49,250 bases of DNA from Bacteroidia bacterium. GTDB lineage: Bacteria > Bacteroidota > Bacteroidia > CAIKAF01. Numbering within the stretch: position 1 is the first letter of the stretch; every line of letters starts with the position of its first letter. Positions 267-41,333 of the stretch are shown in pieces. A model generated the notes under the pieces. That model had not been told where the DNA came from. It saw nothing but the letters and a program-made list of their open reading frames with translations, and did not search any database. Both the position numbers and the translations under genes were made by a program. The stretch spans positions 1-49,250 of the forward strand of contig JAUHWY010000024.1 in assembly GCA_030427255.1 (NCBI GenBank), written 5' to 3'.

Positions 267-429
267 TTTAAACTCAAGTCCGACCCAGCCCCAGTTTTAT
301 CACAGTACAGCATCCCAAGGCTAATGCCTCTACTACTTGAAAAAGCCATTCCAAAAATCAAAACTTTTGAAAGAATTTTTCGCCCGCTAAAATTCACTTT
401 AAGTAGATTTTTATTGTGGGGTATTTTGG

Positions 430-573
430 GCGCCTAATCCGTCTCCGGCCATTAGCTGCCTCCTAGGTTTGCTACGCCGCCAAGCGAGGCCAAGGAGCTT
501 CCTGTGGTCGCTCTTGCCCTCTCGGCGGCTGTGCACCCTATTTCGGCAGGCTAATTGGCCTCCGCCGGGGCGC
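430..573 (+). repeat. GC-rich palindromic element a (variable-arm family)
   Basis: This GC-rich island sits in AT-rich intergenic DNA. Outer arms at 447-460 (GGCCATTAGCTGCC) and 545-560 are complementary apart from two extra bases. Inner arms GCCGCC (476-481) and GGCGGC (524-529) also pair. The core carries AAGCGAGG at 482-489, the motif shared by the other members of this family in the window. No open frame here looks coding. Confidence 0.6.
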
Positions 574-725
574 AGATTCCCCTCCGTGTGTCAACTGCCT
601 TTGGAAGCAGACCTTGAAAAGCAATAGGGAAAAATGAAGCCATTTTTTCTTTTCATGCGTCCAATGCGCTCACTATATCTCAGCTAGGTAGTTTCTAAAA
701 AAGTGTGTAAAGGGTTCCTGAAAAT

Positions 726-2906: not shown

Positions 2907-3247
2907 GATAAATAAAATATAAATTAGACTATAAGCGCAATTTAACTTAAAATGAATGAAGCTAATCTCCTGAAAAAACCTAATAGATTGGATTTTGAGA
3001 TGGGCGCATGGAAGTTGGATTAAAATGAGCAGCGAAAATTAGAAAAATATTCGGGCAATCGCCCAGGCAGTGGGAGAAGGAATGCGTTTGATGTACAAAT
3101 ATTGCTTTGTTAGCGGAGGGGACCCAATCCCAACCAAGGAAAAATAGCAAGAACCCATCTTTTGATAGCGATAAAACGAAGACACAATCTCATAGGATAA
3201 TTACATGCCAAAGAATCGCCCCTCCGGCCCAGCAAAAGGCCGCTTGA

Positions 3248-3327
3248 TGCTCCAACTTAGCCGCCTTTGGGCGAGGAGGTGTAGCTTTGCGGAACCACCA
3301 CAGCCTTAGGGCGGCTTGGTTGGAGCA
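3248..3327 (+). repeat. GC-rich palindromic element b, 80-bp stem-loop
   Basis: Arms of 18 bp (3248-3265 and 3310-3327) pair with two mismatches. The loop carries GGGCGAGGAGG at 3270-3280 and CCACAGCCTTAGGGC near the right arm, both recurring in other family members. The wider region 2907-3455 holds no gene I can support; the short frames crossing it are compositional. Confidence 0.65.
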
Positions 3328-3395
3328 AGAGAGCCTGGAGCAAGGGCCGGATACAGAGCGTAATTTTGCTATGGGCAAGGGCCCAAAACCTACCA

Positions 3396-4769: not shown

Positions 4770-4967
4770 AACTTTTTTATTGAAAGAAAAAATAAGTTTG
4801 GGGTTCATTATTGCCTGTTAAAATATCTTCCCAAACCGAATGATCCAATTTGAAGTTTCTTTGTTTTGGGCCTTTCCTCCGTGGCTGCGTCAGGAATTCT
4901 AGTCGGCCCTTGTTCCGGCCAGCCTTGCCCCTGCTTGGTTTGGGGGACATGCGGTGACTTACTCGAA

Positions 4968-5032
4968 GCATTAGGTCGTCCATAGACCCCTACGGCAGCG
5001 TAGGGGCCTCCTCGGCCTCCCCAAACCAATGC
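4968..5032 (-). repeat. GC-rich palindromic element c
   Basis: The inner hairpin is perfect: CCCCTACG (4987-4994), loop GCAG, CGTAGGGG (4999-5006). On the minus strand, GCCGAGGAGGC precedes it, the family core. The outer arms GCATTAGG (4968-4975) and CCAATGC (5026-5032) are weak. GC-rich flanks run from about 4870 to 5080. The stretch 4770-5574 holds this element and repeat copy 2, but no supportable gene. Confidence 0.55.
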
Positions 5033-5213
5033 AGCGGCTGCGGCGGGTCCTCCCTTGGGGCCTTGGAGGCCACTCTTTGCAGTTTCTTTACTCTATAAAG
5101 TAGTTCAGACTCCCCTGTTCCCTGATTGAAATCAAGGGACAAGGGCATCTAAAGATCTGGGCCCTAGGAGATTTGCGTTTGCCTTTTCTCAGAAGAATGA
5201 ATACATCCAGTGG

Positions 5214-7002: not shown

Positions 7003-7191
7003 CCTGTAAGAGTAAAACCCAAATTCATTTCTTGGTAAATTTTATTCTAAGCATGGTAGACCTAATCCACTTATGGTATATAAGCGTTCGGGGACTTTTT
7101 GGAGAATTTCTTTGTGTTGCATTAGGTATTGAAGCCGGGATTTCTTCAAATATAGCCCGGCCTTGGTACGGAGGCCGAAAACCCACAGCCT

Positions 7192-7268
7192 TGGGCCTTA
7201 GGCAAGCGGGCAGCGAGGAGGCTCCCGATTTTCGGGAGACCCCGGAGCGCCGGCTTGCCTTAGGCCCA
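7192..7268 (+). repeat. GC-rich palindromic element d
   Basis: Outer arms of 16 bp (7192-7207 TGGGCCTTAGGCAAGC and 7253-7268) pair with a single mismatch. Inside are GCAGCGAGGAGG and a perfect inner hairpin CTCCCGA/TCGGGAG. This is the same layout as the elements at 25938-26025 and 41097-41175. Confidence 0.7.
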
Positions 7269-7307
7269 TGGCGAGGATTTGAGGCCGGAGGACTTGTGAT
7301 ACACTTT

Positions 7308-7450
7308 GAGGCCGTTGACGCGTTGTGTTTTCAAGGCGAATTAAGGCACGGTCAATTTAAAAGTCCGCAGTTTACTAGTTGTAAATGAGGAACTTGAGAA
7401 TTGGCCGTAACGCAAAGTCGCCGTCAGAATAGCAACGCGTCAACGGTCTC
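7308..7450 (+). repeat. ~143-bp imperfect inverted repeat
   Basis: The left arm (about 7308-7357) and right arm (about 7398-7450) are related in inverted orientation. The outer 18 nt are nearly perfect (GAGGCCGTTGACGCGTTG against GAGACCGTTGACGCGTTG) and similarity fades inward. It lies between element d and the rplQ terminator. A decayed small mobile element or a structured RNA are both possible. Confidence 0.6.
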
Positions 7451-25845: not shown

Positions 25846-25937
25846 TACCGGCTTTTGAAAATCATTCAGGAATCTTTTTTAATTCTTTGTTTGGGTTTTT
25901 ATTTGGGGGCCTTTTCCGGCCATCAGGCGCAGCTGCA

Positions 25938-26025
25938 CCCCGCCCCGGCTGCCCCTGCCGGGCTCCGGGGTCCCCCGAAACATCGGGGGCCTCCTCGCTT
26001 CCGGCATGGGCTAGCCGGCCCGGGG
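25938..26025 (-). repeat. GC-rich palindromic element e
   Basis: On the minus strand the core is GAAGCGAGGAGGC followed by an inner hairpin CCCCCGA/TCGGGGG. Outer arms (25938-25961 and 26001-26025) pair with several mismatches. It lies in the divergent gap between rpsL and the dehydrogenase gene, which has no supportable gene. Confidence 0.65.
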
Positions 26026-26114
26026 CACAGGCTGACTTCTTCTGTCCGGGGCCCAAAATCTTCTTCCAATAATTCATGGCTACACATGGAACTTAAGGCC
26101 CAGGGATTGAACGC

Positions 26115-26215
26115 GGTAGCCCTCCCATTGCAAAACCCGAGGCTGCCAGGCGAGGAAGCGACCAAAGGAAGCTACCACAGCCCTGCAGCCTCGTGGTTTT
26201 GCTTGGGAGGCTACC
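26115..26215 (+). repeat. GC-rich palindromic element f, 101-bp stem-loop
   Basis: Arms of about 31 bp (26115-26146 and 26185-26215) pair with few mismatches: GCAAAACC, GAGGCTGC and GTAGCC on the left all find partners on the right. The core has GGCGAGGAAG on the plus strand and CCACAGCCCTG, as in element b. It is opposite in orientation to element e, 90 bp away. Confidence 0.7.
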
Positions 26216-26290
26216 GGTGAAAGCCCGCCCGGGGCCCCCACCCTTTTACTCCTTTGCCAAATCTTTGGTTTCCGTTTCTCAAAGCTAAGG

Positions 26291-34622: not shown

Positions 34623-34629
34623 GATGAGG

Positions 34630-34848
34630 TAAAGACGGGATGCCTCCCGTCTCTCAAGGACAAAGTAAAGACGGAATGCCTTCCGTCTCTATGGCAGACG
34701 ACTAGGTAAAGACGGGATATACCTCCTGTCTCTCAAGGACAAAGTAAAGACGGAATGCCTTCCGTCTCTATGGCAGACGACTAGGTAAAGACGGGATATA
34801 CCTCCTGTCTCTCAAGGACAAAGTAAAGACGGGATGCCTCCCGTCTCT
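34630..34848 (+). repeat. Array of six short hairpins with a 79-bp tandem duplication
   Basis: Six units of the type TAAAGACGGGATGCCTCCCG plus TCTCT lie at 34630-34654, 34666-34690, 34707-34733, 34745-34769, 34786-34812 and 34824-34848. Each can fold as AGACGGRA/TYCCGTCT. The blocks 34666-34744 and 34745-34823 are identical, so one 79-bp unit carrying two hairpins was duplicated. Similar AGACGGGA..TCCCGTCT repeats are widespread in Bacteroidota intergenic DNA. Confidence 0.9.
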
Positions 34849-41031: not shown

Positions 41032-41096
41032 GCGGGCCCCGGTTCCATAGAAAGCCTCAGCTCCATATCCGGCCCTTGACTGCGGTCTCCCTTGCC

Positions 41097-41175
41097 CCAA
41101 GCAAGCCGGCTTAGGGCTGCGGGGGTTTACCCGAAACAACGGGACCACCTCCTCGCCCAAAGCCGGCTAGCCCGG
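41097..41175 (-). repeat. GC-rich palindromic element g
   Basis: Arms 41097-41117 and 41155-41175 (21 bp) pair with about four mismatches around AGCCGGCT. On the minus strand the core reads GGGCGAGGAGGTGGTCCCG with a weak inner hairpin CCCG/CGGG. GC-rich flanks run from 41032 to 41215, with no gene. Confidence 0.65.
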
Positions 41176-41223
41176 GGCTGCGGGCGGCCCTCCGTTGGGG
41201 CCGGGGGGCGATTTTACATAGCT

Positions 41224-41333
41224 CATGGTTTCAACCATGGGCGAACCGGCGCAACCCACGATATATCCACGATTTCAACCATGGGCGAACCGTCGCAACC
41301 CACGGTATACCCCACGGTTTCAACCGTGGGCTA
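41224..41333 (+). repeat. REP-like array, 44-bp units
   Basis: Two full 44-bp units (41224-41267 and 41268-41311) and a partial third carry small palindromes CATGGTT-TC-AACCATG and CCACGGTT-TC-AACCGTGG, separated by GGGCGAACCGKCGCAACCCA. The array ends at the stop codon of the minus-strand T9SS gene and may serve as a bidirectional stop between that gene and carA. Confidence 0.85.

Follow-up and report, generated by a model that had tools for sequence, protein, structure and literature searches.

The window considered here, a stretch of 49,250 bp on contig C47 of a Bacteroidota draft genome (G000; 3.22 Mb, 57 contigs, with T9SS sorting domains), contains seven palindromic places whose arms differ from one to the next. 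Do these places represent one family, how did they come to be where they are, and what keeps each arm paired with its own partner? The initial annotation, made from the sequence of the window, proposed one common design for all seven and attributed the pairing either to selection on structure or to an amplification process that copies a foldback.

Architecture of the seven window elements

Folding of the full regions revealed that the complete unit is a single long imperfect hairpin of 130-190 bp. At its foot, GGsCC...GGCC with a bulged ATAA is followed by CCTGATGGAAGCAGGTAGC against GCACTACCGCAGACAGCAGG, or by a variant such as CCGGATGG...CAGCCGGA. Then come a middle module (GAAAGCCCGGAGC paired with GCGAGGACTTG) and an inner module (GCGAGGAGG paired with ACCCCGGAGC), the latter enclosing an apical hairpin of several types. 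The two modules are one internal-loop motif (GCGAGGA against CCCnnAGC) used in opposite polarity, and the internal loops are purine-rich on one strand. A covariance model of the inner part, or core (R1; 22 sequences, 69 positions), recovers five of the seven listed places (match positions below), while the 430 and 4968 elements were assigned via outer arms and modules rather than by R1. The seven elements are as follows.

424..575, minus strand: outer module GCGCCCCGGCGGAGG...GGAGACGGATTAGGCGCCCAAAA with variable arms and an apical hairpin of the GCGACCACAGGAAGC type; fold z -4.80
3210..3388 (borders approximate), plus strand: core GCGAGGAGG...ACCACCACAGC; R1 40.3 bits at 3255, fold z -4.95
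4866..5070 (ends approximate), minus strand: interrupted family member with outer arms CTGC.TTGGTTTGGGG / CCCCCAAACCAAGCAG and core GCCGAGGAGG
7173..7286, plus strand: middle module GGCCGAAAACCCACAGCC / GGCGAGGATTTGAGGCC, inner module GCGAGGAGG / ACCCCGGAGC, apical hairpin CTCCCGATTTTCGGGAG; R1 72.4 bits at 7197, fold z -7.10
25905..26054, minus strand: element of the rpsL-SDR gap, unit GGGCCCCGGAC...GGCCGGAAAAGGCCCCC; R1 74.3 bits at 25946
26097..26237, plus strand: second element of the rpsL-SDR gap; R1 39.0 bits at 26136, fold z -7.74
41034..41210, minus strand: element downstream of carA, unit GCCCCCCGGCCCC...GGAACCGGGGCCC; R1 45.3 bits at 41100

The proposal of one design was confirmed at all seven places. 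When folded as single-stranded DNA, six of them beat 200 of 200 dinucleotide shuffles (z from -4.35 to -7.74), and the place at 4968-5032, as first bounded, folded weakly (z -2.08 against 200 such shuffles). The latter borders were wrong. On the minus strand this hairpin extends from about 4866 to 5070, and its core is interrupted by an additional palindrome (CCCCTACG...CGTAGGGG) that takes the place of the inner part. A near-identical palindrome occurs in one other copy, where comparison with the ortholog identifies it as an insertion. The 430 element gave no match in the R1 search of G000; judged by sequence, it is a family member through its outer module and through copies matching it at 82-85% in a sister species (G004, at L185:3544-3712 and L168:780-941). 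As to the other elements, 3214-3384 is 74% alike to a stretch of G004, 7173-7286 is about 92% alike in G004 and in place, and both the 25905-26054 and the 41097 elements are found there too.

The stems joining the modules are unrelated in sequence in most copies, with pairing kept. The own arms of an element form 46.6 Watson-Crick pairs, as compared to 15.1 when one arm is shuffled and 17.7 when arms are swapped between elements, so that the pairing lies far above the shuffled control, and the claim that arms differ yet pair with their own partners holds. Covariation likewise exceeds slid and shuffled controls. Certain positions of the inner stem, counted from the core, are favored by mismatches (A.G at 11-12 bp, T.T at 15-16 bp). 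A half-turn periodicity of mismatches, which looked possible in the profile, is not claimed, the strongest period being near 13 and that of 5.5 minor.

A side observation concerns the 41097 hairpin, whose outer part is overlapped by an ARAGORN tRNA-Pro call (41167-41247) that is absent from the results of the Rfam tRNA model; the palindrome has probably given rise to a spurious call here.

Dispersal of copies and residence in place

The search of G000 with R1 yielded at least 139 matches at E<=1 and at least about 115 at E<0.01 (150 candidates scored), spread across nearly all larger contigs, which disposes of the possibility, raised at the outset, that few or no further copies exist. G004, a congener with about 88-90% nucleotide identity, has at least 82 matches at E<=0.001, and four other congeners have 4-6 each. 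The copy number among congeners thus ranges from about 5 to more than 100, and the distribution is patchy: 31 of the 40 genomes searched with R1 have no match, and class-wide, under stricter filters, a match at E<=1e-5 was obtained in only 5 of 119 genomes. An R1-checked scan of GTDB for the core pattern detected true copies, among the matches listed, in at least Flavobacteriales, Sphingobacteriaceae, Bacteroidales and other Bacteroidota MAGs, the copies in these other MAGs having the same architecture.

Copying to new sites in the past is evident from near-identical copies with unrelated flanks and from element-free sites in relatives. Forty of the 100 G000 copies compared fall into clusters of at least 80% identity, and one of these clusters has ten members; many of its pairs are 92-97% identical along some 150-190 bp, and the flanks either differ or are made of short hairpin repeats. 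The 41097 element has a 94% twin on contig C6 (L253); since the flanks of this twin are unrelated, the exact unit ends (GCCCCCCGGCCCC and GGAACCGGGGCCC) could be read off. The rpsL-SDR gap, 534 bp long with two elements in G000, measures 145-154 bp and is without an element in G001, G002 and G005, an empty-site reading that rests on rpsL and the common gap sequence, as the SDR proteins at these three gaps are only about 30% identical. An element of G000 at the L228 locus has no counterpart in G004, where an array of GTAAAGACGGGATGCCTCCCGTCTC repeats is all that is present. The ends of the unit are complementary to each other, and inspection of the aligned copies by eye revealed no target-site duplication.

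On the other hand, current mobility is limited, as G004 shares most of the copies that lie in syntenic blocks; within the blocks compared, all 16 G000 elements occupy the same place in the same orientation. Across 50 G000/G004 ortholog pairs, identity is 92.2% for the element and 78.1% for the 50-bp flanks, with the element better conserved in 45 of the 50. A function for the host could likewise account for such high conservation of the unit.

Other repeats occur alongside the family. The short REP-like hairpin GTAAAGACGGGATGCCTCCCGTCTC forms an array at 34629-34847 of the window (4 matches within 3 mismatches, none expected) and is found around most of the long elements that make up the ten-member cluster. 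A second dispersed repeat at 7310-7448 is MITE-like, about 140-160 bp long with inverted ends GAGGCCGTTGACGCGTTG...CAACGCGTCAACGGTCTC; it has an approximately 92% copy at L199:12541-12697 and others in L173, L177 and L176, and a repeat of this type at L163:1822 seems to replace the 3' half of one long hairpin element.

Paired arm changes and what may maintain the fold

In the long stems of the 50 ortholog pairs, 31 base pairs have changed on both sides, versus 2.7 expected from the per-site rate. Twenty of these changes produced a new Watson-Crick pair, half of them by transversions, and these 20 are concentrated in 7 of the 50 elements. In two pairs of orthologs (L262/L296 and L305/L293) the sequence of both arms differs largely or wholly while the pairing persists, and the modules on either side of these stems are unchanged. 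The window element at 26136 differs from its G004 ortholog by blocks on both sides (CCTCCCATTGC/GCTTGGGAGG to CCTTTTCAGGC/GCCAAAAAGG), and apical hairpins, like paired blocks or whole arms, have changed together too. No donor copy for the replaced arms was detected among the 164 elements compared (about three quarters of the G000 copies). Both explanations offered initially, selection on structure and amplification by copying a foldback, fit these data. Such wholesale paired replacement of arms at orthologous sites is, in our opinion, the most interesting point of this study, and it asks for a mechanism, either selection on the folded single strand or template-switch repair rewriting one arm from the other; either one would bear on the general question of how bacterial chromosomes keep long palindromes and how these evolve.

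With more than 100 copies and 50 ortholog pairs, the family provides a large set for distinguishing selection on RNA from selection on DNA. Selection of one strand as RNA should lead to more G.U than A.C among the one-sided changes. The one-sided stem changes in the 50 ortholog pairs comprise 31 G.U, 25 A.C and 69 transversion mismatches, as compared to 67 G.U, 10 A.C and 17 transversions for a similarly treated control, the RNase P RNA of 16 genomes of the same family (Fisher p 6e-5, with a control that is imperfect in that its larger distances and alifold-chosen structure favor G.U). A G.U bias seen in 15 ortholog pairs (13 to 3) vanished with 50 (31 to 25). Standing mismatches inside the stems of G000 copies number 12 G.T and 6 A.C; raw counts taken over entire elements were left aside here, being dominated by the fixed module loops.

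With respect to genes (simple ORF calls), the initial placement of the elements in gene-free gaps was essentially right. Among 69 copies, 29 lie in co-directional, 23 in convergent and 17 in divergent gaps, and the co-directional ones are oriented 19 with and 10 against the genes, a lean to the sense strand that is not significant. Convergent gaps are somewhat over-represented (23 of 69 versus 50 of 249 gaps overall), as would suit transcription terminators or stabilisers of mRNA 3' ends. However, neither strand shows a T-run after the hairpin (aligned copies have CCAAAA at the 3' end of the unit), and the 17 copies in divergent gaps speak against this very improbable function as well; the terminator idea was rejected on both grounds. 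The view that the copies constitute a structured noncoding or cis-acting RNA family, whose covariation would reflect selection on an RNA fold (as implied by the Rfam classification of Flavo-1), has more in its favor: an outer module homologous to Flavo-1, a listed likely RNA; purine-rich internal loops on one strand, which would suit an RNA fold; the slight sense lean; and better conservation of elements than of flanks. We nevertheless regard it as unlikely, as the one-sided changes are without the G.U excess that RNase P RNA displays, gaps of all three types hold copies, and copy number swings widely among congeners. Moreover, the Flavo-1 matches of Flavobacterium psychrophilum lie indistinctly sense or antisense of transcripts, and many are untranscribed (PMC9723704).

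The observed permanence (16 of 16 syntenic copies keeping place and orientation, a unit better conserved than its flanks, copies on nearly all larger contigs) would also be expected of chromosomal sites with a host function, for example cruciforms bound by nucleoid or repair proteins, which spread long ago and have been kept by selection. This explanation is without a known partner protein and seems quite improbable to us, since about 5 copies suffice for congeners that have the same core genome, and recent copies together with element-free sites indicate a repeat-like spread. A different and possible, if doubtful, view is that of a DNA element carrying structural information, whose fixed mismatched joints would be recognised on the folded strand and whose stems would be rewritten in paired blocks, arm copied from arm. 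If true, it would mean that unrelated arms can replace each other at one site in sister species, and that the RNA label of Flavo-1 in its entirety may belong to a DNA element.

We lean, with some caution, towards viewing the copies as a dispersed DNA element of intergenic regions, non-autonomous and working in the form of a folded single strand. Dispersal, fold, kept pairing and paired replacement are directly observed; recognition of the single strand by an enzyme is suggested by analogy with E. coli REP and TnpA-REP, where the enzyme needs the folded single strand and the mismatched bulge of the REP (PMC8266576, which also mentions attC sites). According to this proposal, the strand would fold, for example during replication, and a protein acting on single-stranded DNA (possibly a Y1/HUH enzyme) would read the mismatched modules of the folded strand and copy or move the element. 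Selection, or template switching in which one arm serves for the repair of the other, would restore the pairing of the stems, and the stems would drift because the modules, not the stems, are read.

Y1 transposases and comparison with known systems

A REP-associated tyrosine transposase had been suggested as a gene to look for. Y1 transposase genes are present (three in G000 and four in G004), and the four loci considered here are the following.

L162:3900-4244, Y1 locus
L163/L164, C7:20020-20361, Y1 locus
L165:9024-9335, Y1 locus
L168:9102-9443, Y1 locus

At three of the four loci an element lies within about 100-400 bp, which is above density expectation in a count made after the fact. Most of the genes display the motifs DHVH, WQ and YIKNQ (one has lost the tyrosine motif), which correspond to TnpA subclass 1.2, reported without REPs (PMC6006769). 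Over 24 genomes the presence of Y1 does not track the element: some genomes without R1 matches have Y1 genes, and some with few copies lack them. A RAYT as the obvious driver is supported neither by presence and absence nor by protein motifs, and the link to a cognate RAYT is weak, though proximity at three of the four loci still makes it a candidate. The search for a cognate enzyme gave none, the Y1 genes lying among other short repeats: each is found amid a short hairpin repeat of its own (e.g. AGCTCCGTAGGAGCG, CGACCCCTTCGGGGTCG, CCCACGGTTGAAACCGTGGG).

The statement that no named family has this pattern requires correction, as the outer module matches Rfam Flavo-1 (RF01705), albeit below the gathering score. 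On the element of a Sphingobacteriaceae MAG (L117) the Flavo-1 model aligns end-to-end over the outer module (1-76) with 26.5 bits versus the gathering score of 42, and the consensus foot (tandem 3x3 purine-rich internal loops) is present; a like layout is seen by eye in G000 copies. Genome searches gave Flavo-1 matches above gathering in G006, G008, G012 and G018, and only sub-threshold ones in G000 (best 33.9 bits), the best of these being compact elements with the common foot and the GCGAGGACTTG module. At the gathering score, Rfam models detected only tRNA in the window, Flavo-1 being absent, and a permissive Rfam scan of G000 copies gave chance matches only, mostly to microRNA precursor models. 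Because the G000 matches stay below the gathering score, the window elements are, on sequence grounds, long-armed relatives of Flavo-1 and not members by Rfam's own rule. Separately, compact Flavo-1-like elements (GCGTGAGGGATAGCAGCGGAAAGCCCACAGCGAGG...GCGAGGACTTGCAGCGGATAGCCCGACCC...GGGGCACGCCC) at L206, L207 and L208 of G000 and at L210-L212 of G004 are nearly invariant in sequence, unlike the long-armed family.

The family resembles REP, BIME and REPIN sequences in being made of dispersed intergenic palindromes of high copy number with conserved mismatches, and probably in the way it works, by recognition of folded single-stranded DNA. However, REPs are 20-40 bp long with a conserved stem sequence and a 5' foot of the GTAG type, whereas the window family is 130-190 bp long with free stems and no such foot. 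Integron attC sites are recognised as a folded single strand via their unpaired bases, with a stem of variable sequence; the likeness, in working only, is that of a folded strand read through unpaired bases with varying stems, and the window family is without gene cassettes and without R'/R'' core sites at its ends. With MITEs it shares a small, non-coding, non-autonomous and dispersed nature and complementary ends, but instead of short terminal repeats its unit consists of one whole stem containing structured loops, and it shows no recognisable target-site duplication. Since 2010, Flavo-1 has figured among the listed small RNAs of unknown function. It was proposed as an RNA that is not cis-regulatory (PMC2864571). 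Like the window family, it is found in intergenic regions of Bacteroidota in many copies per genome, and it has the same foot (CC-GAU-uG-aAG-CG...paired with UguAgCGgAaAGCgg) in equal strand and order. The differences are the score (26.5-33.9 bits here versus 42) and the long variable arms, repeated GCGAGGA/CCCnnAGC module and apical hairpin, all three present in the window family and absent from Flavo-1; set against Flavo-1, the window family also evolves without a G.U excess. Overall, the long-hairpin family extends a known, as yet unexplained kind by a new form with long arms.
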